Assembly: GCA_963555705.1 (NCBI GenBank)
Contig: OY743180.1
Coordinates: forward strand, 43,618,129 to 43,682,128
Direction of reading: 5' to 3'
Source: Ligustrum vulgare
Taxonomy: Eukaryota; Streptophyta; Magnoliopsida; Lamiales; Oleaceae
DNA: 64,000 nucleotides
Below are positions 5,367-60,555 of this stretch, piece after piece. The notes under the pieces are model-generated. The model saw only the letters and a program-made list of their open reading frames with translations. It searched no databases and was not told where the DNA came from. Both the position numbers and the translations under genes were made by a program. Position 1 is the stretch's first letter; each line of letters starts with the position of its first letter.

Positions 5367-5510
5367 TGTTGAAATGTGTTACTTCTTCTATTATTGTACC
5401 AATTTAGTATCTAGTAATTGTTAGGGACTAGGTTGTTAATTGTTGTAATATTCTTGTATATACCAAGTTCAAGTAAATGAAAGATTATTATTCTCTCCAA
5501 ATATTCTACA
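5367..5510 (+). repeat. 5' LTR of copia 1
   Basis: 144 bp beginning TGTTGAAATG and ending ATTCTACA. Base-by-base reading shows no difference from the 3' LTR. A TATA-like TGTATATACC lies near 5455. Confidence 0.95.
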
Positions 5511-6071: not shown

Positions 6072-9000
6072 ATGGATGGGTCTACTGATATCTCTGTTGC
6101 ATCACACGTTGCTCGATTGTCTCCTGAGGAAGGTTCTTTTGGTTTAGCATCAACTTCTACAATATCTAATTATTGGGTTATCGACTCTGGAGCTACCGAC
6201 CATTTTGCTTGCAATCATTCTACACTTGACTCTCTAACTACTTCACATGTTAAATCTGTCCAGGTGGCTAATGGAACTCCTGTTCAAATTACCGGGGCTG
6301 GAAATGTTTCATTTTCACCCACGTTATCTCTATCGTCTGTCTTACTTGCACCTACATTCTCTACCAATCTATTATCCATTAGTCAAATTACCAAAACCCT
6401 TGATTGTTTTGTAACCTTCTTTCCTTCTCATTGTATCTTTCAGGATAATCAAACGAAGAAGACGATTGGTACTGGTATTGAAAGGGGAGGACTATACTAT
6501 TTGGAGAAGACCAGTAAGTTGCAAACAGAGACTGGTGCTGGTCTTCAAGTAGTTAGTAGATCTTCTCCTAGAGACAGGATCCTTTTGTGGCATTGTAGAT
6601 TAGGACATACCTCATTTTCTTATTTAGAGCACTTGTTTCCAAAATTATTTCAGAATATTCCTATCTCTAGCATGCGATGTGAACGATGTATTTTTGCCAA
6701 AAATCATCGTGTACCTTTTAAAATTAGCCAAAATAGAAGTCATGTCCCTTTTGCTTGTGTTCACACCGATGTTTGGGGCCCTTTCTCTACTCCTTCTACC
6801 TCAGGTCAGAAATATTTTGTTTCTTTTATTGATGATTGTACTAGAGTGTCTTAGGTATACTTTCTAAAATCTAAGGGCGATGTCACACATGTTATTCCTC
6901 AATTCTCAAAAATGGTTGAGACACAATTTCATTCTCAGGTTAAAGTTTTTCATTCTGACAACGGCCGTGAGTTTGTAAACCAAACCCTTGCTAACTTTTT
7001 CGCGAATCACGGTATTCTCCATCAAACAACTTGTGCTTACACACCTCAACAGAACGGCATAGCAGAGCGTAAAAATAGGCATATCCTTGAGGTAGCCCGA
7101 GTATTATGCTTTACTATGCGTGTTCCAAAACGTTTTTGGGCTGAAGCCGTGTCAACTGCTGTCTATCTCATTAACCGTATGCCTTCTCGCATAATTGATT
7201 TCCTGACTCCTCTAAGGATGTTGTCAAGATTCCACTCTATTCCTTCTGCCTTGAATATTTGTCCTAAAATTTTTGGTTGTGTGTGTTATGTCCATGTCCA
7301 CTCCCATCTCAGAGACAAACTTGACCCACGTGCCTTGAGGTGTGTTTTTCTTGGTTATTCCAGCTCCCAAAAGGGTTAAAAATGTTTTTATCCTCCTACT
7401 GGGAAATACTATATCTCTATGGACGTTGAATTTTGTGAATCTGAGTCTTTTTTCTCTGATGATGTGTCGTTAGTTCCTCTTCAGGGGGAAATTTGTAGTA
7501 AAGAAGAGGAACAAATATGGTTAGAAGAAAAGAAAGTATGGATTTCTAATGGTAAGGGGGAGTCCGAAGACGAGAGTGACAGATCACCTAGGTTGTTCCA
7601 AAAGTGCTACACCAGGAAAAATCTAAATACTCCTTGTACTCCAGCACCAGTTACTGAAGGCACTATCGAGCCCTCTTCAAACTTTAATAGTTCTCCTGTT
7701 GATACTACTGTGCCATCGGACTCTTCTATGATTGAAAATGAGGTACATACTCCACCTCCTACCTCTCCCATTTCTATTCCTATTCATATCCCTGCTTCTA
7801 ACTCTAACCCTGCAGCTTTAGACATTGTTGACACTCCAGTTAGGAGATATCCCCTTCGGAACCATAACCCACCTGATAGGTTGGGCTTCTCAACATCTTC
7901 TTCCTATGCTATATTTCCTATCTCTGACTATATTTCTTATCATCGGTTATCTAAGACCAACATGGCATTTGCCCTTCAGTTGTCTTCTGTGTCTATTCCT
8001 AATCACTTTCAGGAAGCTCTTGATCACCCTAAGTGGAAGTCTGCTATGGTAGAAGAAATGAATGCTCTCCAACAGAACTCTACTTGGGAGATGGTCTCAT
8101 TGCCGTCAGGAAAAAGGTCCGTTGGGTGCAAATGGGTGTACTCATTAAAATACAAGTCAGATGGAACCGTGGACAGGTATAAAGCAAGACTAGTTGCCAA
8201 AGGTTACTCACAGACCTATGGAATTGATTATCAAGAGACTTTTGCTCCTGTAGCTAAGATGAACACAGTTAGAGTTATATTATCCTTGGCGGTCAATCAG
8301 GACTGGCCATTGAGGCAATTTGATGTGAAAAATGCATTTCTTCATGGTGATTTGATAGAAGAAGTGTATATGGATCCACCACCAGGTTTCACTCCTCCAG
8401 GGGATAAGGTTTGTAAGTTGAAGAAGGCTCTATATGGACTAAAACAATCACCAAGGGCATGGTTTGGAAGGTTGAGTTGCTTAATGAAGAGGTATGGTTT
8501 TAAACAGGCTTTAGCTGATCATACCCTATTTTATAAAAGGAATGGTCAGGATATTACATTACTTATTGTGTATGTGGATGATATGATTGTTACTGGCAGT
8601 AACCCCAGTGAAATTGAAAAACTTCAGATTCATCTTACGAAAGAGTTTGAAATGAAAGACTTGGGTGCCCTAAAGTACTTCTTGGGCATCGAGGTATCAA
8701 GATCCAAACAAGGACTTTTTATTTCCCAACGTAAGTATGTTCTTGATCTACTAGCAGAAGCTGGTATGTCGGCTTGTGCACCTGTAGACACACCTATAGA
8801 GGTGAATCACGGTCTATCTATTTACCCTGATCAGATTCCTACAAACAAAGAGAGATATCAGCGTTTGGTAGGAAAATTGATCTATTTGACTCACACAAGA
8901 CCTGATTTGTCATATGCAGTGAGTGTTGTGAGTCAGTTCATGCATAACCCAAGTGATCAGCACATGAGTGCAATTAATCGTATTTTGGCATATTTAAAGT

Positions 9001-9527
9001 CTTCTCCAGGTAAGGGCATCTTGTACTCAAAAAGGGGGCACCTAGACATTGTGAGCTATACAGATTCTGATTTCGCTGGATCTAGATTGGATAGAAAATC
9101 TACATCAGGATATGTTTCATTTGTTGGAGGAAATCTTGTTACTTGGAGAAGCAAAAAACAAAATGTGGTCTCATTGTCTAGCGCTGAGGCAGAATATCGT
9201 GCTTTGCATCATGCAACTACCGAGCTTACGTGGTTGAAAATCCTTCTTAGTGAACTTGGTTTTGGTCCGAGGAAGCCCATGCTACTTTTTTGTGACAACA
9301 CTGCAGCTATTGAGATAGCAAACAATCCGGTACAACATGATCGAACGAAACATGTTGAGCTGGACAGAAATTTCATCAAAGATAACCTCGACTCCAAGAA
9401 TATAGAGATTCCATATGTTAAGAGTGCAAATCAACTAGCTGATATTATGACACATGGAGTGGCTAGTGGTTTATTCTATACATCGATATCCAAGTTGGGC
9501 ATGTGTGATATCTATGCACCAACTTGA
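6042..9527 (+). pseudogene. Copia 1 polyprotein (protease, integrase, RT, RNase H), two nonsense mutations
   Basis: One frame runs through the whole region and is broken only at 6852-6854 (TAG) and 7377-7379 (TAA). The ATG of choice is at 6072. Visible parts: protease VIDSGATDHF near 6180; integrase zinc region with HCRLGH and CERC (6590-6700); catalytic HTDVWGP, FHSDNGREFVN and the GIAERKN block; RT from LDHPKWKSAM with FDVKNAFLHGDL and the catalytic YVDD near 8570; RNase H YTDSDFAGS to SSAEAEYRAL; and the C-terminal LADIMTHGV. The RT and RNase H part (7419-9527, 702 codons) is fully open. Gag is missing. Confidence 0.93.
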
Positions 9528-9534
9528 GGGGGAG

Positions 9535-9678
9535 TGTTGAAATGTGTTACTTCTTCTATTATTGTACCAATTTAGTATCTAGTAATTGTTAGGGACTAGG
9601 TTGTTAATTGTTGTAATATTCTTGTATATACCAAGTTCAAGTAAATGAAAGATTATTATTCTCTCCAAATATTCTACA
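9535..9678 (+). repeat. 3' LTR of copia 1
   Basis: 144 bp identical to the 5' LTR, preceded by the purine tract GAGGGGGAG and followed by GTTCC (9679-9683), the right copy of the target duplication. Confidence 0.95.
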
Positions 9679-24900: not shown

Positions 24901-25223
24901 GATTGTTTTGTAAGTTTCATTGGATTAAAGAGGCATCGGAAGATTTATTCCAAGCAAACAATTCTACTAAGGCTAGCTACCATGCCTAAGCCCAAACTAT
25001 TGCTTGCGTACCTTAGATCTCAGAAAACTCAACATAAGGTCCTATCCTAGAATAAGGTTAGAATTATCTGTAAGTTTCACTTTTATTTAAGAGACATCAA
25101 GCAGAACAGCATATCAAATGCAACAAATATCCTCCAACAACGACCAAAAAAATTAAAAAAAAAATAATAATAATTTGCGTTGTCAGTCAACAGAAACGGA
25201 AAAGGAAACTAGAGAATACATAC

Positions 25224-25972
25224 AGCTTAGCAGAATCTGCAGAACTTAGATGTTGTTCCTGACACACTGAGTTATCTATGGACACATCAGGAGCAGAGCA
25301 AGCAGAGAAGCATGCTGAGATGTGGAAGCCCTCGAACCCAAACCTTTGGAGTAGATTCTTCACAACATTGGGCGTGAAATATTCATGAATCAAGAAATTA
25401 TTAGGCTGTTCTTTACTTCTGAAGCTCCTGTTAGGTTGTCCACAATTTCCAGAGCTTCTTTCGCCGCAAAAAGTGAAAGAATGATATGCTGCCACACCAG
25501 GTTGCACACGCCTGGAAATCAAATTACTTGTAGAGCAGTCTGTGAGAGACTGCAGAGATAATCTAGATCCACAGACAGCCATTAATACCTTTTGAGGGTT
25601 AACTCCCACTCTAACCTGACTAGGCTCTGATAGAAGACAATCAACGTGATACTCACAAACTTGAAATAAAGGTCCTGACAAAGACAGAAATGAGCTTGCA
25701 CTAGAAACTGCTCCAAAAACTGGAAGATTCTTTATCTGGTTGACTGTAAAATTTGCCTGAGCAGCAGCAACCATGCGAGGTTGCACAAAAACATGCTGGT
25801 TGGTAAATGTTTCGGAAGGCATACTATAGGTCATCCTTGACCTACCAAGCAAAGATTTTCCTAGGCCGGTCAAAGCTTCTATCTGAGCTTGGACACCACT
25901 ATCTTGCCCTGATATTGATCTCCACCCTCCCTTCCGTAATGAGCCACCGAGTCTCAAAAAATAGCAAGGCAT
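25224..25972 (-). CDS. PP2C-family phosphatase, first coding exon with N-terminal extension
   Basis: From ATG at 25972 (MPCYFLRLGGSLRKGG) to a GTATGT donor, 749 bp = 249 codons plus two bases, exactly in phase with the next exon. An intron acceptor (CACCCAAGCAG, exon from 25976) just upstream argues for this ATG rather than the one 21 bases earlier. The long N-terminal part, rich in Arg and Ser, is typical of this PP2C subgroup and may include an organelle-targeting signal (inference). No stop interrupts it. The 5' untranslated exon(s) should lie right of 25977 and were not located. Confidence 0.82.
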
Positions 25973-25976
25973 TTCC

Positions 25977-27699
25977 CTGCTTGGGTGAAACAATCAACCA
26001 ACCTGTTTGCTATATAAATCACAATGACAAGTGCCACAAACACAAGACAATCACATTCCTCTCAGCGCATCTATATATTTACAATTTCGTAATCAGGATC
26101 ACCTTCCCCTTCACGATATCTTACGGGAATCGAGGAACCTGATGTTACAGACAAGAAGAGAGTGTTATGAGGAAATACTTGACAAACTTTGTCTGAGTGA
26201 AAACAAAATATGGTAGTCACAAAACAGCACCAGTTATCAGAACTTGAGTGGTAACATGTAATCCATCGGGCCCCATTTTTTAATCTTCTCCAATATATTT
26301 AGAGAATAACGGCTTATAGAACAGCAAAACAACAACCCAACAAAGTGAGTGAACAACAGCAACTACTTTCACCTGTCTATTTTCAGGACTAAGAAGTAAA
26401 ATCTTATAAAAGGAAAAATCAGTATGTATGATTTTCAACAAAAATCATCATTAAATAAAGTTTATCCACTGGTATATAGATTTCCACCAAATGAGTTTTC
26501 CAAGTTTAATGACAAAAATGGGTTTTTTATTCTTTTTTATTTTAACCTAAAAGATTAAATCTGTGGCCGGCAAAGTAAATAGAGAAGAACCAATTTACCA
26601 ATAAAGAACTTGTTCCAGTATTCCTTGGGATTCTATAATTTCTTAAAATCAAACAGAAAGAAACCAAGGCTAAACAAAACAGGAGGCCAATAAAATTTTG
26701 ATCTGACCATCCCAATTCACCACTCCCCAATCTTACGAAAAATGGAAAAACTTGTTAAGAACTGTGATTCCCTGAAACTGCCAACACCGAATGAAACAGT
26801 ATTAAACTATTGAAGAACAATAAATGGAAGCAAGTTTCATTCTTGTCATAAAAACGAGAACTTTTCAAAATCAATATAGAAAGATCAAATTCAACCATCA
26901 TCTCCTCGATAATGCAATACACAAATTTCGGTCATATCAAACATTAAAGGCTGGACACAACTAAAATCATTAAAAAAAAACTACTTAATAATAATCAAAT
27001 ACAAAAAGCACGATGAAAAAAATGCTCAAAAGTACAAAATCATTGCTTTGACTGATGAAAGTTTGCACCTTAGTATTCATAAACTTGCTAGCAGTGTCAC
27101 AATCACAAATCTCTACTTATCCCCCAACTGTATATAGTAACAAATAGTTGGATAAAACCCAATAAAATACTAAGATTCGTGGTTCATATTCGTTGTTTTG
27201 GATTCACAAATATTGTAGGCGTATGGCCACAAGCCTCTCTTTCTCTCAAGATTATGTGGGACGGCTGTTTGGGTTGTTGAAAGGACAAGTCCAAAATCTA
27301 GTTCTGAGGGAACGGTGGGAAGCTCAGCTATCACTTCACCACCAAACTCAACAACCTCTGTGATTAATTACAGTTCGAATTTGGGAATTTGGGTGGATTG
27401 TGTCATCAGTTCAAAAAAAGGTAATGTGCTTGCACTGTAAAGACTATTTTGCCCCCTAGTGTTTCTTCACTTTCAATTTTTACCTCTTTTTATTTAGACC
27501 GGTACGTAACACGTGCGGCACACATTATATTTTAAAGATATTTTAATATTTTTATTCAAGTATATATGTTTTTTAGATTGAAGGAAATTGTCCAAATTTT
27601 CCTTTATATTTTTTCACTTAAAAATGTATAAAATATTGAACTAATCAATCAAGTGTCGAACTTAATAACCCTAGATATTATTCAAATTTTTATAAAATA
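25977..27699 (-). other. Upstream region of the PP2C gene (5' UTR intron and promoter expected)
   Basis: No coding exon is supported. A GC-richer stretch near 27230-27430, against an AT-rich background, is the best candidate for the first untranslated exon and promoter on the minus strand, but no TATA box or donor site is convincing. Open frames on the plus strand here are short and unsupported. Confidence 0.4.
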
Positions 27700-32307: not shown

Positions 32308-32871
32308 CCAAGCTGGTAAATAAGTATCCAAACGAATTTTGCATGGCCAACTCGTACTGCTAAATTAGTGGCTAAACAACCATTAGGTTATGTACAAATC
32401 TAACAATATATTTGCCTTCTCCCTCTTCTTCCTGCTGCCTCCACCACTTTGTTCCATGTGACGTTGTTATTCTTTAATTTGGCAATGGGGGTTCAATTGA
32501 TAAGATAATATATGATTTGGGCAATTTTTATGGAATGTTTTGCATTTCCTCAATATAGATAGATGAGAGAAAGAGTGATTTTAAGGATTGATTCGGTTGT
32601 GGGGAGAGAGATATGGAGGATTGAGAATAACAAGAGTCTGATTTTTTTCTAATTAGTTTCAGATCACCGTGTTTATCTAAACCCATGTTTAATAAGTAGT
32701 ATATGGTCTGATTTTCCTACTTTTATTAGTAATACCATCATCTTTTCTTTTCTAATTATTGATTGTTGGCTTCTTTAATTTTTGAACCTCCTAGAATGTA
32801 TTCTTAAACTGCCTTCTATGAAGAAATTGGAATTGGAATGAATTTCTTCTCTTATTAATATAGTGCATGCA
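32308..32871. other. Intergenic DNA, nothing recognised
   Basis: About 560 bp of AT-rich sequence with no supported gene or repeat, next to the left arm of the long inverted repeat. Confidence 0.5.
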
Positions 32872-32887
32872 TGACCAATCCATTTCC

Positions 32888-33085
32888 GCAGCAAAAAAAT
32901 AATGATAAACGTTATAAACTAGAGAGAATGAAAAGAGAAGAATAGAGACACCAATAAGCTTGTGTATTTATTATGAACCAGAGTCTCATATATATATAGG
33001 AGAGAATAGAGATATACAAAGTAATAATGTCTAGGGTTATAGGGGTACAATTGTCATTTATCAATACAAGATAATATTTACAACA
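32888..33085 (-). repeat. Copia LTR (family 3), left arm
   Basis: On the minus strand it begins TGTTGTAAATATTATC after the purine-rich CAAGGAAGAG and includes a TATA-like CCTATATATATATGAG. Homologues lie at 37464-37650 (plus) and 41210-41350 (minus). Confidence 0.75.
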
Positions 33086-33301
33086 CTCTTCCTTGAATGA
33101 CATATTACAAAATATCTGCCTCATTAAAACCTTGTTTGATAAAAACTCAATGAGACAAAAATATCAAACGAAAGAAAGAGAGTAAAGTTAATTTTGGAGT
33201 ATTAAGATGAATGCTACCTCGTTAAAACCTATTCAGGAAAATTCGAGAGGACAAAACCTTGACAAAGGAAAAAGAGTACAGCTACTCCTCCTAGTGTTAA
33301 T

Positions 33302-33420
33302 CACTGTAAATTATCGAGTCGATACATTCCAATCTTTTTAACTGATTTCTTGAATGTAGATGTTGGTAATGCTTTTGTGGATAAATCAGCCACATTGTTA
33401 CTTGAGTGAATTTGTTGAAA
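33302..33420 (-). pseudogene. RNase H C-terminus of copia 3, left arm
   Basis: The minus strand encodes NNVADLSTKALPTSTFKK and KIGMYRLDNLQ followed by a stop, the conserved end of copia polyproteins. It is the better preserved of the two arm copies. Confidence 0.85.
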
Positions 33421-34744
33421 ATTATAGAGTGTTTTAATGCTACTTCGTTAAAACTTTGTCAGAAAATACATTGGGACAAAACTTGAACGAAGGAAAAAGA
33501 GTACAGATATTCCCCCTTATTCAATCTATATTTAATCATCATATAACTACTCCCCATGATTCAATCTCTATTGAATTTGAATCATCAATATCTTGATCTC
33601 TTCAAGGGTCTTGTATAGGAGAGTATATCAACAGACATTGATAACAGCTACCTCATTGAAAACCTTGCAGGGAAAACCTCGTGGGAAAAAATCCGTCTAA
33701 GGAAAAAAGAGTGTAGCACATATTAGCTCCCCCTCATGGGAACGTTATAATTATATTGATATTGTATATAATTATTTCAACTATTAATTGGTGCAATATC
33801 GAATATATTCACCAAGCATATATAAATGGCACATCTCATATTATTTGTTCTTCGAATATAAATTTAATTATTTTTTTCAACTTGAAGAACTATAAATTAT
33901 TTCGAATCATTTGAACATGCTGCATCGATCCATGATCTACAATCAATATTCCTCAATGCATTTAATGCAATTCTCAAATTTGAAAATGATTTATTCACTT
34001 CAGGTGAATAATTAACCCTGAATTTGCATCTTGAAAATCAACTTTCACGAGTTTCAAATATTATTATTCACAATAATGATACATCCCAATTTCAACATTT
34101 TGTCATATAGAGTCATTTGTACCATTTTTCATGTAATCTAATTTTATATTATCAATCATATTCCATTACAAACTGAATCCATTCTTGGCATGTTAAATAT
34201 TCAGATAACAAAGTATCTGTATACTTTGATCAAACAAGTTTCTTAAAAACTTGAATTATATGTTTCAAACATATTTAATCATTCAAGGATTATATTGTAT
34301 GCTTCAGGCATATTATATGTGATATGAATCATAATGGGCTTGACGGAAAGTTAAATATTCAAGCCAAACAAAAGTGCAATCCAGTCAACCATGTCAAAAT
34401 TGGATGTATGACGTGTTTTACGAGTAGAATCGGGTCACTAAGCAAAATTAATGGGCTCAAGCCCTTGAGCCCACTAATTTTATGGTCAAATTCCATCATT
34501 TGGGGTTTCAACACAACAAGTCAATTATGCAAACGAGAAGTAGGGTTTACGCACATTTTTATGTTATTTTTCGATTTTTCATTATTTTGTTAGGATTTTT
34601 TTCCTCTATAGCGGCTACCCTAGTTATTAGGTTTTTTTTATTATTATTTATATGCTATTTTTTCATTATAATAGTTAGACTTTGATTTTTAATAAAGATA
34701 TTGAGTGTTTTTCAATAGTAAATGTGTGGATTCACTTTACAAAT

Positions 34745-34870
34745 TCGAACTTATCAAGATCAATCATCTTGTGGTATTCATCCCGAACTTATCAAAGATT
34801 AATCATCTTTGTGGCGTTCAAATCGAACTTATCAAGGATCTGGACATTCCTTGTGGTGTTCACAAGTATT
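34745..34870 (+). repeat. Three degenerate 45-55-bp repeats in the arm LTR
   Basis: The phrase CGAACTTATCAA..GATCAATCATCTTGTGG..TTCA occurs three times in a row. The mirrored copies lie near 35680-35810. Confidence 0.75.
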
Positions 34871-35010
34871 GGTTCTTACTTCCGTATTGTCAATTCTTGT
34901 GGCATGAAGCTCGGGTCAAGATCATATCGTCCATCCACAACCCAAATTTGGAACTTTTTGGCGTTTCTTCAGCATTTTCGTCGTGTTTCTCGAACGGGAT
35001 CACATCATCT

Positions 35011-35022
35011 GGTATCAGAGCT
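35011..35022 (+). other. Primer-binding site at the palindrome loop border
   Basis: TGGTATCAGAGC at the exact inner end of the left arm marks the end of an LTR facing right. The right arm lacks it, having GCGATCGCGCGG at that place. Confidence 0.8.
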
Positions 35023-35544: not shown

Positions 35545-37134
35545 CAGATGATGTGATCCTGTTCGAGGAATACGATGAAAATGCGGAAGAAATGCCGAAA
35601 AGTTCCAAATTCGGGTTGTGGATGGACGATAGGATCTTGACCCAAGCTTCACGCCACAGAAATTGACGATGCGGAAGCAAGAACCAAGACTTGTGAACAC
35701 CACAAGGAATGTCCAGATCCTTGATAAATTCGGTTTGAAGGCCACAAATATGATTAATCTTTGATAAGTTCGGGATGAACGCTACAAGATGATTGATCTT
35801 GATAAGATCGAATTTGTAAAGTGAATCCACACATTTACTATTGAAAAACACTTAATATCTTTATTAAAGATCAAAGTATAACTATTACAATGAAGAAATA
35901 GCATATAAATAATAAGAAAAAAGACCTAACAACTAGGGTAGCCGCTATAGAGGCAAAAAACCCTAACAAAATAATGACAAAAGGGAAATAACATAAAAAT
36001 ATGTGAAAACCCTAATTCCCGTTTCATAATTGACTTGCTATTTTGAAACGCCAAATGATGGAATTTGACCATAAAATCAGTGGGCTCAAGGGCTTGAGTT
36101 CATGAGTTTTGCTCAGTGACCCGTTTCTACTCAAAAAACACATATTATACATCCAATTCTGAAGGGGTTGACTGGATTGCACTTTTGTTTGGCTTAAATA
36201 TTTAACTTTTCGTCCAGCCCACTATGATTCGTATCACATATACTATGCCTGAAGCATACAATATAATTCTTGAATGGTTAAATATGTTTGAAACATATAA
36301 TTCAAGTTTTTAACAAACTTGTTTGATCAAAGTATACAGATACTTTGCTATCCGAATATTTAATATGCCAAGAATGGATTCAGTTTGTAATGGAATATGA
36401 TTGATAATATAAAATTAGATTACATGAAAATTGGTACAAATGACTCCATATGACAAAGTGTTGAAATTGGAATGTAACATTATTGTGAATAATAATATTT
36501 GAAAATCGTGAAAGTTAATTTTCAAGATGCAAATTCAGGGTTAATTATTCACCTGAAATGAATAAATCATTTCCGAATTTGAGAATTGCATTAAATGCAT
36601 TGACGAATATTGATTATAGAACATGGCTCAATGCGGTATGTTCAAATGATTGAAAATAATTTATAGTTCTTCAAGTTCAAAGAAATAATTGAATTTATAT
36701 TCGAAGAACAAATATTATGAGATATGTCGTTTATATATGCTTGGTGAACATATTCGATATTGCACCAATTAACAGTTGAAATAATTATATGCAATATCAA
36801 TATAATTATAATTTTCCCATTAGGGGGAGCTAATATGCGTTACACTCTTTTTTCCTTAGCCGAAGTTTTGTCCAACGAGGTTTTCGTGGCAAAATTTTTA
36901 ATAAGGTATCTGTTATTAATGTCTATTGATATACTCTCTTATATGAGATTCTTGAAGAGATCAAGATATGGATGATTCAATATAGATTGAATCAGGGGGA
37001 GTAATTATATGGATGATTAAATATAGATTGAATCAGGGAGAATAGCTGTACTATTTTTCCTTCGTTCAGGTTTTGTCCCACTGAGTTTTTCCGATAAAGT
37101 TTTAATGAGGCAGCATCAAAATACTCCAAAATTT

Positions 37135-37250
37135 TCAACAAATTCACTCAAATGACAATGTGACTGATTTATCTACAAAAGCAGTACCAACATCTACATT
37201 CAAAAATCAGTTCGCAAGATTGGGATACATCGACTCAATTATTTACAGTG
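37135..37250 (+). pseudogene. RNase H C-terminus of copia 3, right arm
   Basis: The plus strand encodes HSNDNVTDLSTKAVPTSTFK and a diverged tail, the mirror copy of 33302-33420. Confidence 0.8.
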
Positions 37251-37463
37251 ATTAACACTAGGGGGAGTAGTTGTACTATTTTTTCTTAGCCAAGGTTTTG
37301 TCCCCCTGAGTTTTCTTAGTGAGTTTTTAACAATGCAACATTCACTTAATACTCCAAAAATAACTATACTTGTTTTCCTTCATTTAATATTTTTGTCCCA
37401 TTGAATTTTTATCAAACAAGGTTTTAAAAGGCAAATATTTTGTAATATGTCATTCAAGGGGAG

Positions 37464-37650
37464 TGTTGTAAATATTATCGTATATTGGTGAATGACAATT
37501 GTACCTCTACAACCTTAGAAACTATTGCTTTGTATATTCCTACCCTCCCCTATATATATGGGGCTCCGGTTCATAATAAAACACACAAGTTTATTGGTGT
37601 TTCTATTCTTCTCTTTTTATTCTCTCTAGTTTATAACATTTATCATTATT
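37464..37650 (+). repeat. Copia LTR (family 3), right arm
   Basis: It starts TGTTGTAAATATTATCG after the tract CAAGGGGAG. TATA-like CCCTATATATATGGGG lies near 37550. Confidence 0.75.
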
Positions 37651-37678
37651 TTTTTGTTGCAAAAATGGATTGGTCATT

Positions 37679-47742: not shown

Positions 47743-48701
47743 AAGTCTGTTTCTAAGTCTTTTATGAAGTCTGTTTCTAAGTCTCTCATAGCTTTCCTCT
47801 GGATACTCATATGTCCTGAATTAGGGTCTGCTCCAGTAATTAAAATTTGTACTTTATTAACAAAATTATAAGGATTGCTTCCTAATTGATCTAGCTGATC
47901 ATATTCTTCTTTTCTTTCTATTTTATAGGCTTCCCACATTGCCTTAGTACTTTCTCCTAAGAATGTTTCTAAGTATCTATACATGTCTAAAGGTTCCATT
48001 TCTTGAATATTTCTAATATAATGTCCTATTATTGTATTCTTCCATACGTCTATAACATTAGTCCATGTCTGGGGATCATGTGCAGTAATATATAATATTT
48101 GTGCTTTAGAGGCTGACTGGAATTCTATTTTTTGTTCTAAAGGTCTCTCATTTCCTTTTGCTACATATCTACTATTCTGTGGTGGTTCATTATATGCACT
48201 ATAAGCTCCTCTAGGAGGAAAACCATCTTCGTAAGTTAAAATCTCATGTTTTGTGGTCTTATCAAAAGGGGTTTCATCAAATGTTCTATACCTAGTTGTA
48301 ACTTCCATAAGTTCTTTTGTATAGATATAATCTGTAACATCTGTCTTATTATCATTTTCTTCATTGATAATTCCTTTTCTAATGTTTTGTTCTAAGTCAT
48401 AATATAAATATTCATTTTCTTTTACTTGCTTTGAAATATACATTTGATCTTTTAGTTCTAAAAGTTCTTCTTTATTTAAAATAATTCCTAATTCTTTTGG
48501 AAAGATTATTTTATCAATGTCTTCTTCTATCAGTTCTATGTGAACATTTTCTTGGTATGGTTCTTGTTCTTCTTCATCAGAGGTTTTTGGTACATATCTA
48601 TAATCAGTAAACCTTAAACTTGTTCTACCATGTACGTCTTTATAAGTTAATGATTCTCTAGGTGCAATTGATTTTTCTTCTTCTTCTAAGAACTTATCCA
48701 T
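47736..48701 (-). pseudogene. Caulimovirid coat protein, segment A, C-terminally truncated
   Basis: 321 codons from an acidic start (MDKFLEEEEKSIAPRES) through a charged region to the capsid core (TWTNVIDVWKNTIIGHYI, LDMYRYLETFLGESTKAMWE, NPYNFVNKVQILITG). It is cut after the QRKAMRDLE block by a 26-bp tandem duplication and the junction at 47743. Segment D carries the matching region and the missing downstream part. Caulimovirid coat proteins usually have such acidic N-termini. The ATG lies four bases from the end of the movement-protein ORF. Confidence 0.75.
47742..47790. repeat. Tandem duplication of about 26 bp at the coat-protein breakpoint
   Basis: GAAGTCTGTTTCTAAGTCT occurs twice in direct order and gives the repeated KDLETDFI residues at the truncated end. 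Confidence 0.85.
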
Positions 48702-48704
48702 ATC

Positions 48705-49515
48705 TCATTCTAATCCTGCTAATTGTTCTGCTGAAAATTCTTTGGGTTTAACCATATTGATTCCTTTACTACTCATTAGTCCTACTACTTTATCCATATA
48801 TACTTTATATTTAGTTTGTGAATTGATTGAGCATCTTCCTAAGAATCCTATATGTATTAAAAGATTATCACCACTGTTTGTTTCTTCATATCCTTTAGTT
48901 TGTATGCCGATTTTAATTTTTTCTGAAAAATCTCTGATAGTCATTAAAAAGTCTGGGTTACAGTAAATAATACCATTATTACTATTCATGTCTTCTTCCA
49001 TACTTGCTATCTGACCTTTTTCTATATTATTAAATCTTTCATCATAAATGGATCAGTGTTTTACATTCTAAACTCTTCCTAGTTAATCCTTTTATTCCTA
49101 TGACAATTAATCCTAAATGAATAAATCTAAAATTTCTTTTTCTAAGTTCTTTTTTAAAATCTTCTGATATTAAGTTAAGTTTTACTACTTGATTGCTAAT
49201 ACATTGTATTTCTACTTCTCTATGGTGTCTAAAAAATTGAGTTCTTGATTCAAATATTCCTCTATTATACAAGATATCAGGATTAAGTACTCTTAATCCA
49301 TGTGTCTGGAACCTTGCATAATCTTGTTCTGGATCTATAATCTCTTCTAAATTTTGATTATGTTGTTCTACTCTTCTTAAAATCCTATCTAAGAAATTTC
49401 TATTTATTCCTGATATACTTGGTCTTGATGTTCCTTCGCTAATTGTTCTAGATCTTCCTAAGAATGGTGTTGTTAAACTCATGTTGGGAATTTTAAATCT
49501 TTTGGTAATCTTCAA
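48705..49515 (-). pseudogene. Caulimovirid movement protein, broken in two frames
   Basis: The first frame (49515-49042) contains KKELRKRNFRFIHLGLIVIG and IKGLTRKSLECKTL, a strong signature of caulimovirid 30K-superfamily movement proteins, which form tubules through plasmodesmata. The second frame (49001-48705) holds YCNPDFLMTIRDFSEKIKIG and SQTKYKVYMDK, the expected later blocks. The linking part near 49000-49045 is frame-shifted and shortened. No functional protein is encoded. Confidence 0.75.
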
Positions 49516-50141
49516 GTAATTTTTTCTTTACCTGTTTCTTTGATATTTAAATTTCCTAATTTGTTTGTTATGGATCTTAGATCACTTTCTATCTTCGGGT
49601 CTATCCTTTTATCAAAAACGTCTAATTTTTTGTGCAGACTAACTACAAGAGTAATAATTATATTATTTTGTCTAATCAGAATTCCTTCGGTTATTTTTGG
49701 AGAATCTAAATTAGTTATTCCTTCTGGGTTTTTATGAAAAATCTTACAATATTCAAATGCTTCTGTGTAGTTTCTTTCAGATTCAAAATCTTTATTCAAT
49801 GACTAAGAATGAATTCTTTTAATTCTTCTGTTTTATTATTTATCTTTCTTGTCTCTTGTAAAATTTCTTTATTAGAATCTAAAATTTTTGTTATTTCTGA
49901 AAAATTACTTTTTAAAGTTATATTTTCTTGTTTAGAATTTTTTTTCTAAAATAACACAATTTTGATTTTTAATAAAGTCTAAATTTTCTTTAACATTCTT
50001 AAATTCTAAGCTTCTTGTTTTTAGATGATCTAAAACTTCTTCTAAAGTCTTATAAAATTTTTTATTAGCTTGGTCTAATTTTTTTGCAAAATTTATGATT
50101 AAGTCTATTAAAAGGTTCTGATTTGGATCTTCTGAAAACAA
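49512..50141 (-). pseudogene. Caulimovirid small ORF(s) upstream of the movement protein
   Basis: Two open pieces (50141-49932, 69 codons; 49799-49512, 95 codons) lie between the PBS and the movement protein, in a position where caulimovirids have small accessory or virion-associated proteins. They are Lys/Asn/Ile-rich with heptad-like Leu/Ile spacing suggesting coiled coil. The second ends overlapping the start of the movement-protein ORF by four bases. Identity not recognised. Confidence 0.45.
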
Positions 50142-50260
50142 ACTGTGTAATTTATGTTTTGTTTCTAAATTACAAATTAAAATATTATTTTCTATTGTTT
50201 TAAACTTTTTACCTTGACTAAAAAGTTCTAAGTCTAAGTATTCTATGTTTTTCTTATTAT

Positions 50261-50275
50261 CTATGGCTCTGATAC
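50261..50275 (-). other. Pararetroviral primer-binding site, segment A
   Basis: On the minus strand GTATCAGAGCCATAG matches the tRNA-iMet-complementary site used by Caulimoviridae. It precedes the accessory ORFs and is followed upstream by a G11 run (plus 50285-50295). Confidence 0.7.
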
Positions 50276-50466
50276 AAAAAAGGAGGGGGGGGGGTACCTT
50301 AAAATAAACACAATCACTGGCGTAGAAGGGTTTATCTTAAGATTTAATGCAGAGGTCGGCTTGTGTGCGGAAGTTACTAGTCTAAAAGGCTTTCACAGTC
50401 TTGTTTATAATATCACGTCTCTATTCTGTATTGTTCTAAATAAAAAGGATAAAATTCACTATCTGT

Positions 50467-50850
50467 CTATATAATTTTTGTTCTTAAATTTCTTTCAAGT
50501 TTTTTAATTTTAAATTGTAATTCAAAAATTCTTTTACTAGTTCTGTTTATATAATCTTTAAACGGATTAAAAGTATCACTATATTCTCTAGCGTCTATTA
50601 TTGTATCTAAAAGTTTATAGTCTTCTTTTAAAGCTTTATCTATGACAAAAACTTGGGTTTGATGTAATGATATTAGATATTCAAATTCTGGAATTATTTT
50701 TGAAAATTCTTCTTCAATGTTAATTTCGTTTGTGGGGTTAGATGAATATAGATTCATAAAATTTTTTGTTTTTTCAAATTCAACTTTAATCCTACTCAGT
50801 ACTCTCCTTAGTTTACTTGTATTTTTTAAGATGCCTTTTTTTTTCACCAC
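50467..50850 (-). pseudogene. 127-codon ORF in the viral leader, segment A
   Basis: MVKKKGILKNTSKLRRVLSR and a Lys/Glu-rich remainder with regularly spaced hydrophobics (coiled-coil-like). It lies between promoter and PBS, an unusual position for a protein gene. Homology to segment B stops at its first codons. It may be a genuine ORF or a rearranged piece. Confidence 0.4.
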
Positions 50851-51040
50851 CTAAGACATATCAACTTGAATCTGACCTTTTCCTATAAGGTTACCACTGG
50901 CACTCCCTTACAAGATTCCTAGATTAACTAACCCTTTTCCTAGTACTTAAGGATCCAAACAGGCTCACTCCGGTCAACAATCCTATCTTTCTGGGTCACT
51001 CAGGATTAACCTAATAACAGTATGGCTTCTAAAAATCAAG

Positions 51041-51265
51041 TTATGCTTTTATGATATGCATAGAATGAAATGATTTATATTTACTAACAAAATTTACAGC
51101 ATATGAACTACTGGAATTAAAAACATGAATACATAAATGTAAAACATAAATAATATTTTTTGGAGATTTATTAAAACATTTTAAAGATAATACAACTAAG
51201 GATTTCCCTTTCGAAAAATCCCCAAAAAGATTGAATAAAACTTTGGGAAAGAAACAATACCTCAA
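51041..51265 (-). other. Conserved 74-codon leader ORF, segment A
   Basis: MRYCFFPKVLFNLFGDFSKG starts about 110 bases downstream of the expected RNA start. The same ORF with few changes is at 53809-54033 (segment B), and its first half is at 52737-52864. Short ORFs are normal in caulimovirid leaders; whether this peptide matters is unknown. Confidence 0.5.
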
Positions 51266-51390
51266 GGATATTCACAGGTTTCTATACACAGGTTTTTGAA
51301 TTGAGAATTTTTCTGATATAAGGAGGTTTTTGTTTTGGAATGAAAGCAAGGAGATCACAAGTTGAAAACTCTTGCCGTTTCCAAATGAAA

Positions 51391-51410
51391 CTAAGTCCTT
51401 ATATAGAGAA
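51391..51410 (-). promoter_or_regulatory. 35S-type promoter core, segment A
   Basis: On the minus strand CTCTATATAAGGACTTAG is followed by TTTCATTTGGAAACGGCAAG. TATA box and downstream spacing closely resemble the 35S promoters of caulimoviruses. Transcription would run through the leader towards the accessory ORFs. Confidence 0.75.
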
Positions 51411-51614
51411 ATTCTTGGGAGCAAGATTACAAGTCTGTCCTAACACGCGTCTTTCTTTTTACAGCTGTCTCCAATTCTTTTCTGCTTTTCTAAAAGTTGT
51501 CTTATGCTTTTTTGACACGCGTTTCTCCGAGCAACTCTGGTCAAAAAAGTTTGGACAATCTTATCCTAAAAGCAAAAATCTTCTGTCGGCAGCATCTTTT
51601 TTCTTTATTCTTTT

Positions 51615-52644
51615 CTACGTGTTCAAATTATGTTCTGCAGTAGATGAAAATGACATCCCACTATCTGAATTATTGTAGCCTTCTCCTTCTTGATCTTCAA
51701 ATCCACTATTTCCTTGGCTAGATCCGTCTTCGTTGTCTTCTGTAATTGGTTCTTTTTTATTCTGTGGACATTCTGGAATTTCCTTTTCCTTTTCTGTTTT
51801 ATTTTTGGAAAAAAAAAATTTCAAAGACTTTTTCTATGGCTTCGTTCATTTTTTCTTGAATTTCTTTGTCTTTTTTCTTTTTTATCACTAATTTTTTCTT
51901 TCTTTTAGAAGACTCTTCTTGGCTTGAACTCTTCTGGAGTTTCTGAATTTGTGAAAGTAAATGATTAATGGAAGCAATGTCGTCTTCCGGGTCTTGAGCT
52001 TCTTGAAAAATTTCTTTTCCTTTGGTATTCTGGCTACTGGATTCTTCTTGGGTAATTTGTATTGGACTGAAATTCTGAATTGGGCTAAAAGAAGGTTCTT
52101 AAGAATATTTGACTAGATAATCAAACTTTCCACTGGGCTGGCCCAATGTATCCCAAATTTCTTTGTTCTGTGAAAATTGTTGGGTCTTTTCAAAATTTAA
52201 ATGGGCTTGTATAGTAGGGAAATCAACAGTTCCCTGAGTCTGTTGGGCTTTTGGCAAGTCCACAGCCATCAACGGGTTTGAAAAGTCTTTACCGGCTACC
52301 GTTTGAGTCGGACTAGCTACTGACTTCTTGGGCTCAGTAGTACCTTTTCATAAACTAAGCTTTAAACTGACAATTTCTTTTTCTAACTCTGTGATCTTCT
52401 TTTGTAGAAGGGTTCTTTCTGAAATGAGGTTCTGGTTGGATTCATTGATAACTCTGAAATTGTTTTTCATACATTCGCACTGGTTACAAAAAATATTCTC
52501 ATCCCTGCTGGGAGAAAAGTCTAGAGGAGGATCTTGGTAGTTCTTGAGAGAAGGGGAAACAAAGAAGTTAATACCTATGAGTTGTCTGGCTGAATCTAGA
52601 GCTTCTTTCAAACTTGTAAAACCTTTGTAAAGTGGAAACGGCAA
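51615..52644 (-). pseudogene. Viroplasmin/transactivator-like ORF tail, segment A
   Basis: The first frame (52644-52348) reads YKGFTSLKEALDSARQLIG, resembling the YK-F-S-EEA part of the viroplasmin (RNase H1 N-terminal-like) fold, followed by a predicted coiled coil ITELEKEIVSLKLSL. The rest is in other frames: a Gln/Ser-rich linker, a KRKKKLVIKKKKDKEIQEK basic stretch and an acidic end (SGMSFSSTAEHNLNT). The ORF ends about 210 bases before the 35S-type TATA box, as ORF VI does in caulimoviruses. Assignment is moderate. Confidence 0.5.
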
Positions 52645-52736
52645 GAGTTTTCAACTTGTGATCTCCTTGCTTTCATTCCAAAACAAAAACCTCCTTATAT
52701 CAGAAAAATTCTCAATCCAAAAACCTGTGAATATCC

Positions 52737-53480
52737 TTGAGGTATTGTTTCTTTCCCAAAGTTTTATTCAATCTTTATGGGGATTTTCCGAAAGGGAAAT
52801 CCTTAGTTGTATTATCTTTAAGATGTTTTAATAAATCTCCAAAAAATATTATTTATGTTTTACAGACTCAGGGAACTGTTGATTTCCCTACTACACAAGC
52901 CCATTTAAATTTTGAAAAGACCCAACAATTTTCACAGACCAAAGAAATTTGGGATACATTGGGCCAGCCCAGTGGAAAGTTTGATTATCTAGTCAAATAT
53001 TCTCAAGAACCTTCTTTTAGCCCAAATCAGAATTTCAGTCCAATACAAATTACCCAAGAAGAATCCAGTAGCCAAAATACCAAAGGAAAAGAAATTTTTC
53101 AAGAAGCTCAAGACGACATTGCTTCCATTAATCATTTACTTTCACAAATTCAGAAACTCCAGAAGAGTTCAAGCCAAGAAGAGTCTTCTAAAAGAAAGAA
53201 AAAATTAGTGATAAAAAAGAAAAAAGACAAAGAAGTTCAAGAAAAAATGAACGAAACCATAGAAAAAGTCTTTGAAATTTTTTTTTCCAAAAATAAAACA
53301 GAAAATGAAAAGGAAATTCCAGAATGTCCACAGAATAAAAAAGAACCAATTACAGAAGACAACGAAGACGAATCTAGCCAAGGAAATAGTGGATTTGAAG
53401 ATCAAGAAGGAGAAGGCTACAATAATTCAGATAGTGGGATGTCATTTTCATCTACTGCAGAACATAATTTGAACACGTAG
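52737..53480 (+). pseudogene. 247-codon chimeric ORF: viral leader peptide fused to viroplasmin-like tail
   Basis: An open frame starting at the leader ORF (MRYCFFPKVLFNLYGDFPKG) passes the recombination junction at 52862 in frame and continues into the viroplasmin-like tail to AEHNLNT. The tail is intact here, with basic KKKLVIKKKKDKE near the middle and an acidic, Ser/Asn-rich end. Whether it is expressed is unknown; only the 5' start of the leader, without the TATA box, lies upstream. Confidence 0.5.
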
Positions 53481-53682
53481 AAAAGAATAAAGATGCTGCC
53501 GATAGAAGATTTTTGCTTTTAGGATAAGATTGTCCAAACTTTTTTGACCAGAGTTGCTCGGAGAAACGCGTGTCAAAAAAGCATAAGACAACTTTTAGAA
53601 AAGCAGAAAAGAATTGGAGACAACTGTAAAAAGAAAGACGCGTGTTAGGACAGACTTGTAATCTTGCTCCCAAGAATTTCTC

Positions 53683-53720
53683 TATATAAGGACTTAGTTT
53701 CATTTGGAAACGGCAAGAGT
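53683..53720 (+). promoter_or_regulatory. 35S-type promoter core, segment B
   Basis: TATATAAGGACTTAG at 53683-53697 followed by TTTCATTTGGAAACGGC. It matches segment A over the whole promoter. It is directed towards the centre of the B/C inverted repeat. Confidence 0.78.
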
Positions 53721-53808
53721 TTTCAACTTGTGATCTCCTTGCTTTCATTCCAAAACAAAAACCTCCTTATATCAGAAAAATTCTCAATCCAAAAACCTGT
53801 GAATATCC

Positions 53809-54033
53809 TTGAGGTATTGTTTCTTTCCCAAAGTTTTATTCAATCTTTATGGGGATTTTCCGAAAGGAAAATCCTTAGTTGTATTATCTTTAAGATGTTT
53901 TAATAAATCTCCAAAAAATATTATTTATGTTTTACATTTATGTATTCATGTTTTTAATTCCAGTAATTCATGTGCTGTAAATTTTGTTAGTAAATATAAA
54001 TCATTTCATCCTATGCATATCATAAAAGCATAA
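53809..54033 (+). other. Conserved 74-codon leader ORF, segment B
   Basis: Same peptide as in segment A (51041-51265) with a handful of substitutions. Confidence 0.5.
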
Positions 54034-54210
54034 CTTGATTTTTAGAAGCCATATTGTTTTTAGGTTAATCCTGAGTGACCCAGAAAGATAGGATTGTTGG
54101 CCGGAGTGAGATTGTTTGGATCCTTAAGTACTGGGGAAAGGGTTAGTTAACCTATGAATCTTGTAAGGGAGTGCCAGTGGTAACCTTATAGGAAAAGATC
54201 AGGTTCAAGT

Positions 54211-54260
54211 TGATATGTCTTAGGTGGTGAAAAAAAAAAAGCTTAGACATATCATCTTGA
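54211..54260. other. Centre of the B/C inverted repeat
   Basis: GATATGTCTTAG and CTTAGACATATC face each other around an 18-base loop (GTGGTGAAAAAAAAAAAG), continuing outward into arms of about 1.37 kb. Confidence 0.85.
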
Positions 54261-55650
54261 ACTTGATTCCTTCCTATAAAGTTACCACTGGCACTCCCTT
54301 ACAAGATTCTTAGGTTAATTAATTCCCTTTCTCCAGTATTTAAGGATTCAAACAGGCTCACTCCGGCCAACAATCCTATCTTTCTGGGTCACTCAGTATT
54401 AACCTAAAAACAGTATGGCTTCTAAAAATCAAGTTATGCTTTTATGATATGCATATGATGAAATGATTTATATTTACTAACAAAATTTACAGCATGAAAA
54501 CTAGAAATTTAAAACATGCATAAAAGTAAAGAAACAAAAAAATTTTTTTTTGAGTTTTATTAAGACATCTTAAAAGAGATACAATTAAGGATTTCCCTTT
54601 CGGGAATTCCCAAAAAATTAAATAAAACTGAGAAGAAGGGCTACCTCAAAGGTTTCCACGTTTTCTTTTCAAAGCTATTTGGATCGAGAATTTTTCTGGT
54701 ATAAGGAAGGTTTTTAGAGATGAGAGCAAGGAGATCACAGGTTGAAAACTCTTGCTTCTTCCTAATGAAAACTAATCCGTGTATAGATAAATTCTTGGGA
54801 TCAGAATTACAAGACTATCCTTAAAAGAAAAAAACGTGTCTTTCTTTTTTACAGCTGTCTTCCTATTCTTTTTTGCTTTTCTAAAAGTTGTCTTAAACTT
54901 TTTTGACACGCATTTCTCCGAGCAACTCTGGTCAAAAAGGTTTTGGACAGACTTATCTAAAAAGCATCTTCTTTTAAAAAGTCTTTTGTCTTGAAGCGTC
55001 GGCAGCATCTTCTTTTTTATGTATTCAAATTATGTTCTGCAATTGATGAAAATGACATCCCACTGTCTGAATTATTGTAGCATTCTCCTTCTTGGTCTTC
55101 AAATCCACTATTACCTTGGCTAGATCCATCTTCATTATCTTCTGGCAATGGTGCTTTCTTATTCTGTGTACATTCTGAAATTTCTTTTTCATTTTCTGTC
55201 TTATTTTTGGAAAAAATTCTTTCAAAAACCTTTTCTATAGCTTCATTCATTTTTTCTTGGATCTCTTTATCTTTTTTCTTTTTGATAATTAATTTTTTCT
55301 TTCTTTTTGAGGATTCTTCTTGGCTAGATGAAGTCTTTTGGAGTTTTTGAATTTGTGAAAGTAAACGGTTGATGGAAACAACATCATCTTCTGGGTCTTG
55401 GGCTTTTTGCATGATTTCTTTTCCTTTAGAATTCTGATTACTGGACTCTTCTTGGGTATCATGTATTGGGCTAAAATTTTGAGTTGGATTAAAAGATGGT
55501 TCTTGAGAATATTTGACTAAATAATCAAATTTTCCACTAGGCTGGCCTAGTGTATCCCAAATTTCTTTGGTCTGAGAAGAAAGTTGCTGGGTCTGATCAG
55601 AAAGTAAATGGGCTTGTGTAATAGGGAAATCAACAATTCCCTGAGTCTGT
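54245..55650 (-). mobile_element. Caulimovirid segment C
   Basis: Minus-strand copy of viroplasmin tail (55638-55017), promoter and leader (to 54245). The TATA region is mutated (TATACACGG at plus 54773-54785), and the sequence is more diverged from A and B than these are from each other. Confidence 0.82.
55017..55412 (-). pseudogene. Viroplasmin-like tail, segment C
   Basis: 131 codons open from a Met inside the tail to the same AEHNLNT end, including the basic KRKKKLIIKKKKDKE stretch. Upstream codons continue in frame without ATG to about 55640, where the junction with D truncates the ORF. Confidence 0.55.
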
Positions 55651-55654
55651 TGGG

Positions 55655-56735
55655 CTTATGGAAGATACAACTACGTATAGAACATTTGATGAAACCCCTT
55701 TTGATAAGACCACAAAACATGAGATTTTAACTTACAGAGATGATTTTCCTCCTAGAGGAACTTATAGTGCATATAGCATATAATGAACCACCACAGAATA
55801 GTAGATATGTAGCAAAAGGAAGTGAGAGACCTTTAGAACAAAAAATAGAATTCCAGTCAACCTCTAAAGCACAAATATTAAATATTACTGCACATGATCC
55901 CCAGACATGGACTAATGTTATAGACGTATGGAAGAATACAATAATAGGACATTATATTAGAAATATTCAAGAAATGGAACCTTTAGAAATGTATAGATAC
56001 TTAGAAACATTCTTAGGAGAAAGTATTAAGACAATTTGAGAAGCCTATAAAATAGAAAGAAAAGAAGAATATAATCAGCTAGTTCAATTAGGAAGCAATC
56101 CTTATAATTTTGTTAATAAAGTACAAATTTTAATTACTGGAGCAGACCCTAATTCAGGACATATGAGTATCCAGAGGAAAGTTATGAGAGACTTAGAACA
56201 ACTTAACTTATATAAATGGACTACAGGTAAATATGTAAAGAAGTTTTTAAATGAATATTATTATTTGACTTCAATATCAGGTAACACATTTAATCAAGAA
56301 ATAGAAAATAAATTGTTTTATAAACTATCAGAACTAGAAATAACAGAATCATGGAATAACTTAACCTCCATAAAAGAATTTTCAGAAAAGAACTGGAGCA
56401 TAGGACAAAGAATTCAGCACGTAATAAGATTTTTAGAAGGAAAATGCGTAGAATTACAAATTCAAAAACAATTTAAAAAGACAGATTATAAATTTTGCAA
56501 AGATATTTTCACACCCCAGACATATGGAGCATCAACCTCCAAATCACATAAGAAAAAATATAATAAGAATTTTAAAAGACCAATAAAGAAAAGATATTTT
56601 TTAAGAAAATCAAATAAAAGAAAATTATACCTAGATGAAAAAAGACATGTTAGAAAATTTAAATCAGAAAGAACTTACAGAAATGAGTGTTTATCGTGTT
56701 GTTATCAAGTACACCAGATTTCACATGCATTTTTG
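55655..56735 (+). pseudogene. Caulimovirid coat protein, segment D
   Basis: Starts inside the acidic region (homologous to plus 48330 downward in segment A) and extends past A's truncation point. An eight-base local duplication near 55770 and a stop at 56037 split the frame. The second part (56163-56870) holds the capsid C-terminal blocks (KWTTGKYVKKFLNEYY, KFCKDIFTPQTYG), a Lys/Arg-rich tail and a decayed zinc finger ECLSCCYQVH whose last Cys is not in place. PQ-YG before a basic tail is typical of Caulimoviridae capsids. Confidence 0.75.
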
Positions 56736-60404: not shown

Positions 60405-60555
60405 ATTCATGAGAATTACTTGCTTAAATGCATGAGAACTTGAACTTTATGTTCATGAGAATTACTTGCTTAAATGCATGAGAACTTGAACTTTATGTTC
60501 ATGAGAATTACTTGCTTAAATGCATGAGAACTTGAACTTTATGTTCATGAGAATA
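60405..60555 (+). repeat. Three and a quarter copies of a 46-bp tandem repeat
   Basis: TTCATGAGAATTACTTGCTT... repeats at 60405, 60451 and 60497 almost without change, then partially at 60543. A related piece lies near 61198-61217. Confidence 0.95.

Follow-up and report, generated by a model that had tools for sequence, protein, structure and literature searches.

Organization of the cluster

The 64-kb stretch of DNA that we analyzed (the window) contains four caulimovirid segments, A to D, which alternate in orientation (−, +, −, +), as coding frames and mapping to other copies in the genome both indicated. As the preliminary description had proposed, no host DNA was recognized between the segments. 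That description had placed the cluster at 47743..56735; the cluster is present there, but these limits were too wide by about 30 and about 50 bp, and mapping set them at approximately 47775–56684. The gene part of segment A (47775..50835, − strand) contains small frames, a movement protein, and the 5′ half of the coat protein, in the same order as in other copies. The movement protein lies in two pieces (49527–48705, − strand) and gave a weak match in the domain search (E 0.005), under the Pfam cut-off. A sequence resembling a tRNA-Met primer site, TTGTATCAGAGC, occurs at 50266..50277 on the − strand and differs by one change from the exact 12-mer, which we take to be the tRNA-Met primer binding site of the caulimovirid leader. 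The rest of A (50836..52635, − strand) consists of the viroplasmin 3′ part, promoter, and leader, which are present as an inverted copy in B and a direct copy in C.

Segment B starts with an extra leader fragment (52633..52864, + strand, 232 bp), absent from the preliminary listing, which is a 99.6% copy of B's own 53705–53936; it then continues with the viroplasmin tail, promoter, and leader as far as the leader A-run (52862..54238, + strand). Reading of the joint showed that B and C meet tail to tail at this A-run (54217..54242, unstranded). Segment C (54242..55661, − strand) again contains viroplasmin tail, promoter, and leader, with the promoter decayed, and segment D (55655..56684, + strand) contains part of the coat protein, as demonstrated by a Caulimovir_coat_dom match (E 1.2e-18), self-comparison, and mapping. 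Taken together, the results support the identification of the cluster as an endogenous pararetrovirus in alternating orientation. Searches of the window against Rfam and of phage records gave no match.

Polymerase had been described as missing throughout the cluster, and this held: a DNA search with a polymerase piece from another locus gave no match within the 64-kb window. The same piece used as a protein query gave only weak stretches (26–33%) at 1.25–2.17 and 10.35–11.24 kb of the window, both in retrotransposon-like DNA. Other copies in the genome carry polymerase, and in L013, L015, L022, and L023, for example, it adjoins the same leader; we therefore rejected the possibility that the cluster represents a bipartite component without polymerase, of the Florendovirus type. 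Copy L015 contains the Caulimoviridae domains coat, RT, RNase H, Peptidase_A3B, and Cauli_VI, which places the virus in that family, and its Cauli_VI domain is located just upstream of the corresponding viroplasmin 3′ part. In a tree, the nearest polymerase from a named host was that of Olea europaea var. sylvestris.

Relationships among the segments and their joints

Self-comparison bore out the earlier statement that A and B, and B and C, carry viroplasmin tail, promoter, and leader as inverted copies. Segments A and B matched in inverted orientation (50836–52243 versus 54238–52862) at 95.7% over 1408 columns, B and C, also inverted, at 81.4%, and A and C in direct orientation (50851–52254 versus 54242–55661) at 82.5%; the coat-protein regions of A and D (47775–48311 versus 56198–55655) matched in inverted orientation at 95.6% over 544 columns. 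The E-values were approximately 0, far beyond chance. In substitutions A and B are 2.2% apart, and C is 14% from both. The tree placed B as sister of A (support 100/98) and C with L038 (100/100). We concluded that A and B are sister copies and that C is a different lineage of the same caulimovirid.

Each of three joints in the window contains a short overlap: TGG at A/B, ACA between the leader fragment and viroplasmin, and 3–7 nt (CTT/CTTATGG) at C/D. Such microhomology of 3–7 nt agrees with an origin by end joining of linear viral DNAs. Beside the left end of the cluster lie a perfect 24-bp tandem and a duplication of 143 bp of host DNA, both compatible with filler DNA. We propose that the cluster is probably an old composite scar, in which several linear viral DNAs, derived from two or more lineages of a single caulimovirid, would have been joined to each other and to host DNA by microhomology-type end joining; we infer simultaneous capture of the segments. 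The B/C inverted repeat would have arisen when two A-run ends were joined tail to tail; a search of the whole genome with an exact pattern yielded no second joint of this A-run-to-A-run type within viral DNA.

The cluster might instead have grown stepwise, by later insertion of viral DNAs into an existing copy or by an inverted duplication on the host side. The different lineage of C is consistent with this, as is the extra leader fragment, which is 99.6% identical to B while A and B differ by 2.2%; since the fragment also contains B's private 14-bp deletion, part of B was copied locally. Splicing was rejected as its source, as the joint retains GTTTTAC and displays no donor/acceptor pattern. 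However, host DNA was not recognized between segments, and the private changes of A and B are similar in kind: 8 of 9 in A and 10 of 15 in B are C>T or G>A, as expected if they arose in the chromosome, relative to 7 of 15 among shared changes. We consider stepwise growth rather unlikely.

Promoters and a candidate hairpin

The preliminary description had two well-kept promoters facing repeat DNA. Both A (51399..51405, − strand) and B (53683..53689, + strand) do keep TATATAA, whereas C has TATACAC at this place, and the B promoter does fire into C; the A promoter, however, fires away from B, leaving the A/B inverted repeat without a promoter-driven hairpin. The proposed 1.37-kb hairpin from B towards C survives only as a reduced stem of about 0.52 kb, as 1.37 kb is the length of the DNA arm and not of a transcript from the B promoter. 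With the TATA box at 53683–53689, B's own transcript would pair approximately 53713–54238 with 54242–54770; the viroplasmin-side arms sit upstream of this promoter, and their transcription would require read-through from elsewhere. For RNA of the hairpin stretch (53712..54772, + strand), folding predicted −628 kcal/mol, relative to −220 for shuffled sequences, with seven uninterrupted stems of 21–58 bp despite the 14% substitutions between B and C.

The B promoter might, on this model, transcribe a 0.5-kb hairpin that would be cut by Dicer-like enzymes. It is possible, but doubtful, that the locus gives siRNAs in some tissue, and we regard its retention by selection for siRNA production as improbable. 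A heritable antiviral hairpin, in which transcribed B/C yields siRNAs that target related viral RNA and the locus is maintained by selection, would agree with the orientation of B's TATATAA towards C, with the strong predicted stem, and with the description of such loci in tomato in the available text of PMC10377300. On the other hand, the C promoter is decayed, the arms differ by 14%, inverted joints occur commonly among the copies of this virus without such a promoter arrangement, and an AATAAA about 190 nt past B's inferred start, ahead of the B/C joint, could terminate the RNA before C. We think this explanation very unlikely.

Inverted joints and leader ends elsewhere in the genome

The cluster is not a one-off: at least 14 inverted joints were found at 13 other loci. 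Inverted joints are a known type of assembly artefact; however, the joints at those 13 loci are different, and the arms in the window differ by 2.2% and 14% and have private indels, making an artefact extremely improbable.

The leader A-run is the preferred end of captured virus. It was reached by 13 of 20 sampled copies, 9 of which pass at that point into DNA without viral match (L041 and L042 were sampled too far inside viral DNA to show ends). Of 74 loci, 9 carried the exact primer-site 12-mer at its expected position in the virus, representing 8 distinct places as L011 and L035 overlap; the matches in L018 and L028 fall outside viral DNA. In terms of our end-joining proposal, the long leader would be where viral DNA is preferentially open or broken, both at the A-run and close to the tRNA primer site, which would account for the frequent ends of captured segments there; the nature of this discontinuity we likewise infer. 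Two other origins for the A-run end found no support. Against a poly(A) tail of a LINE-type insertion, the A-run is also present in copies that continue in virus, and inspection by eye of L014, L018, L019, and L027 revealed no target-site duplication. LINE-type retroposition of viral RNA predicts such a duplication together with a beginning at the 5′ end of the RNA; L010, L012, and the copy at C5:54.36 Mb begin at the A-run or directly behind it rather than at the promoter start.

The host genome, probably that of a member of the Oleaceae, contains 142 exact copies of the leader-end motif. From 100 of these sites, in a motif list not selected for orientation, 16 pairs were obtained, 10 outward, 3 inward, and 3 direct. 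Without the window's pair (9, 3, and 3 of 15), the outward excess relative to 1/4 had P 0.004 and the inverted excess relative to 1/2 had P 0.018, for pairs that are possibly not independent and include one outward pair spanning 21.6 kb. The idea that inverted pairs are only outward-facing was rejected, given the three inward pairs and an outward excess among inverted pairs that was not significant (P 0.073).

Some clusters are palindromes. Two are near perfect, L061 (breakpoints 8–15 nt apart, arms 98.7% alike) and L063 (11 nt, 98.5%); L062 is looser (488 nt, 97.9%). The arms of L073 measure 2.2 kb and are 99.3% alike. These clusters raise the alternative that one viral strand folded onto itself and served as its own template, in the course of reverse transcription or while a break was being repaired, the palindromes then being captured. 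The 98–99% likeness of the arms in L061, L063, and L073 points to copying from one molecule and against joining of separate ones, and some inverted joints are located just upstream of the primer site. In the window, by contrast, B and C are of different lineages, and the two breakpoints of the A/B joint, like those of C/D, lie far from each other in viral coordinates; L072, L073, and L074, moreover, are asymmetric. The two arms of other clusters were mostly no nearer to each other than to other loci, in 205-bp comparisons of low power. As L033–L037 were chosen via neighboring matches to one 2.5-kb query, small breakpoint offsets were not used as a fold-back statistic. We judge fold-back an unlikely origin for the cluster. 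A broader version, also unlikely, is that the virus entered the genome largely via inverted-dimer or fold-back intermediates ending at fixed leader sites; replication would then regularly yield palindromes, from which hairpin loci could readily arise, and the two-lineage tail-to-tail joint in the window would be a rare promoter-driven case.

Relation to known endogenous caulimovirids

Inverted-repeat endogenous caulimovirids are already known, and the present cluster adds another member with a testable, family-wide joining habit. The entry route of caulimovirid DNA into chromosomes is called speculative in the review PMC10377300. Because one chromosome-scale genome here offers numerous distinct inverted joints along with a preferred end, this route can be tested by counting joints. 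Should inverted capture be routine, antiviral hairpin loci would be formed as by-products, a point relevant to whether such loci are evolved immunity.

In tomato, rearranged inverted-repeat endogenous pararetroviruses are associated with 22-nt siRNAs (Valli et al. 2023, msac240, as cited in PMC10377300). The inverted-repeat conformation of rearranged virus was found in the window by self-comparison and, like the tomato loci as excerpted there, could in principle form a hairpin; virus and host family differ, and the predicted promoter-driven stem is here only about 0.52 kb. Rearranged elements in tomato, tobacco, rice, and banana, with small RNAs in tomato (Staginnus et al. 2007, PMC1899175), resemble ours in having inverted, duplicated, and truncated pieces adjoining host DNA; the fixed A-run end and the count of inverted joints are not described in the available portion of that paper. 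Xendovirus-02 and Wendovirus-05, Olea-only clusters in the excerpt of PMC9794742, are endogenous caulimovirids of olive, from which the nearest named-host polymerase in our tree also comes. Endogenous rice tungro bacilliform virus-like sequences tend to end within the intergenic region and at presumed strand discontinuities (PMC526188, in part), and ends are likewise concentrated at preferred sites here; in contrast to that case as excerpted, the preferred end in our copies is the A-run between promoter and primer site.

Structure of the cluster

Self-comparison, coding frames and Pfam matches bore out the preliminary description of four segments of one caulimovirid in alternating orientation, namely A (47775-52635, − strand), B (52633-54238, +), C (54242-55661, −) and D (55655-56684, +). 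No host DNA was recognised between one segment and the next. The cluster stood, with true limits about 30 and 50 bp further inside than first described. In the self-comparison, A and B were inverted copies (95.7% over 1408 columns), A and C direct copies (82.5%), and A and D inverted copies in the coat protein region (544 columns at 95.6%). The 232-bp leader fragment at the start of B was a 99.6% copy of a later stretch of B and carried the same 14-bp deletion that is private to B. Overlaps were found at the A/B joint (TGG), the leader fragment/viroplasmin joint (ACA) and the C/D joint (CTT or CTTATGG); the B/C joint lay at the leader A-run, a run of A at which captured copies frequently end. 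Close to the outer end of A lie a tandem copy of 24 bp, perfect, and a host duplication of 143 bp (91%); either would fit filler DNA left by the repair of a break.

With the leader of A as query, at least 48 matches were obtained in the 1.385-Gb assembly that contains the window (40 of 405 candidates scored). The viral order in 20 mapped loci was leader with small frames, movement protein, coat protein, protease/RT/RNase H, viroplasmin and promoter. Because this order includes protease/RT/RNase H, the polymerase gap belongs to the cluster rather than to the virus: the cluster is without polymerase and the virus itself has one. Its absence from the cluster, claimed earlier, was confirmed by a protein search of the window, in which polymerase matched nothing beyond weak stretches (26-33%) far left of the cluster. 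Among 26 polymerases placed in a tree, an Olea protein was the sister row (support 99/91; 39% of the query covered); a row from another contig and Taraxacum adjoined, and badna- and pakakuy-like rows stood apart. Exact copies of what we take to be the tRNA-Met primer-site motif occupied a single viral position in 9 of 74 loci (8 distinct places), and 2 further loci had a match outside viral DNA. A carries the motif with one change at 50277-50266 (− strand), which places the 127-aa frame at 50467-50850 upstream of the primer site and within a leader of some 1.1 kb.

Lineages, promoters and the predicted hairpin

A tree of the common 1.4-kb piece had 24 rows, with 21 loci besides A, B and C. It made A and B sisters (support 100/98) and grouped C with L038, a locus itself from an inverted cluster (100/100). 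A and B differed at 30 of 1377 sites; C differed from either by about 14%. C>T or G>A made up 8 of 9 changes private to A, 10 of 15 private to B and 7 of 15 shared changes; this excess in private changes, small as the numbers are, fits capture of one viral clone that decayed afterwards.

The two well-kept promoters described earlier held up in that TATATAA is present in A and B (it is gone in C) and that B's promoter is directed into C; A's promoter points away from B. Because the promoter is located in the middle of B, B's own transcript would pair only the B leader with the C leader, about 0.52 kb, so that the proposed B-to-C hairpin is retained in this reduced, predicted form and its 1.37-kb extent is not. 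Predicted folding of 53712-54772 gave −628 kcal/mol versus −220 ± 9 for 15 shuffles, with 459 predicted pairs spanning the joint and seven uninterrupted stems of 21-58 bp; an equal-length stretch of A's own leader gave no such fold (−176 versus −189). An AATAAA about 190 nt downstream of B's inferred start may end the RNA before it reaches C.

With an exact genome-wide pattern allowing at most 30 bases between the ends, which diverged joints would escape, the B/C joint was the sole joint of A-run against A-run in viral DNA; the second match lay in a locus without viral match. Perfect palindromes without a spacer are unstable, and the B/C joint may have persisted because its arms are of two lineages.

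Viral ends and inverted joints across the genome

Leader similarity was used to fetch 20 loci; 13 of them reached the leader A-run and the remaining 7 ended earlier. At the A-run, 9 of the 13 copies turned into DNA without viral match, 3 went on in natural viral order and 1 jumped within the virus. The exact leader-end motif found there had 142 occurrences in the genome versus 0 for the reversed control. Among 100 listed of these 142 places, neighbours less than 25 kb apart formed 16 pairs, 10 outward inverted, 3 inward inverted and 3 direct. Without the window's own pair (9 outward, 3 inward, 3 direct; n = 15), comparison with a random 1:1:2 expectation gave P = 0.004 for outward pairs and P = 0.018 for all inverted pairs taken together, and P was 0.073 for outward among inverted pairs; the pairs are possibly not independent, and the members of one lie 21.6 kb from each other.

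Outside the window we read at least 14 inverted joints in 13 loci (L021, L033-L038, L061-L063 and L072-L074; two in L036). The inward pairs L061 and L063 were near-perfect palindromes, with breakpoints 8-15 and 11 nt apart, respectively, and L062 was a looser one (488 nt); arms in these three were 97.9-98.7% alike. The outward pairs L072, L073 and L074 were asymmetric, with arm likeness of 93.8% in L072 and 99.3% in L073. Outer ends were inspected in 13 outward pairs, of which 9 were selected from similarity searches and 4 from the end-motif list. In 4 of the 12 that could be scored, both ends were the A-run followed by DNA in which no virus was recognised; in 4 just one end was so, in 3 both went on in virus, and in 1 both met reversed leader.

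L036 and L054 (genome sequence C12, 45.56 and 45.575 Mb) have the same joint, A-run against reversed leader at about 206, as mirror images 11 kb apart, which suggests a larger palindrome. The inverted joints of L037, L053 and L061 cluster a little upstream of the tRNA primer site and may mark another preferred end.

Relation to known elements

In the portions consulted, a review describes tandem and multicopy ECV rearrangements and inverted-repeat ECVs with 22-nt siRNAs in tomato and soybean (PMC10377300), and other reports describe DCL2-dependent 22-nt EPRV small RNAs in tomato hybrids (PMC9124383), EPRVs in reverse orientation as dsRNA sources (PMC8256270), and rice copies whose ends prefer the intergenic region and putative discontinuities (PMC526188). 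Since such rearranged, inverted-repeat and reverse-oriented elements have been described, the cluster belongs, as far as these excerpts extend, to a known kind. Among the literature listings and excerpts consulted, none described a single family that combines a fixed leader end with frequent inverted joints.

Other features of the window

A second inverted repeat (32871-35011 and 35545-37677), with 2.1-kb arms 88.8% alike and about 0.5 kb apart, is longer than the viral one and by position unrelated to the virus; part of it also matches DNA adjoining the virus copy in another locus, L008. Identical 144-bp direct repeats (5367-5510 and 9535-9678) flank long copia-like frames (6039-9527), and together these look like a very young short-LTR retrotransposon. 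A protein phosphatase 2C 55-like frame lies at 25187-25993; its closest match, at 78%, is from Olea europaea var. sylvestris, which makes a host of the olive family probable. A tandem repeat of a 46-bp unit (3.2 copies, 100% alike) lies at 60406-60554.
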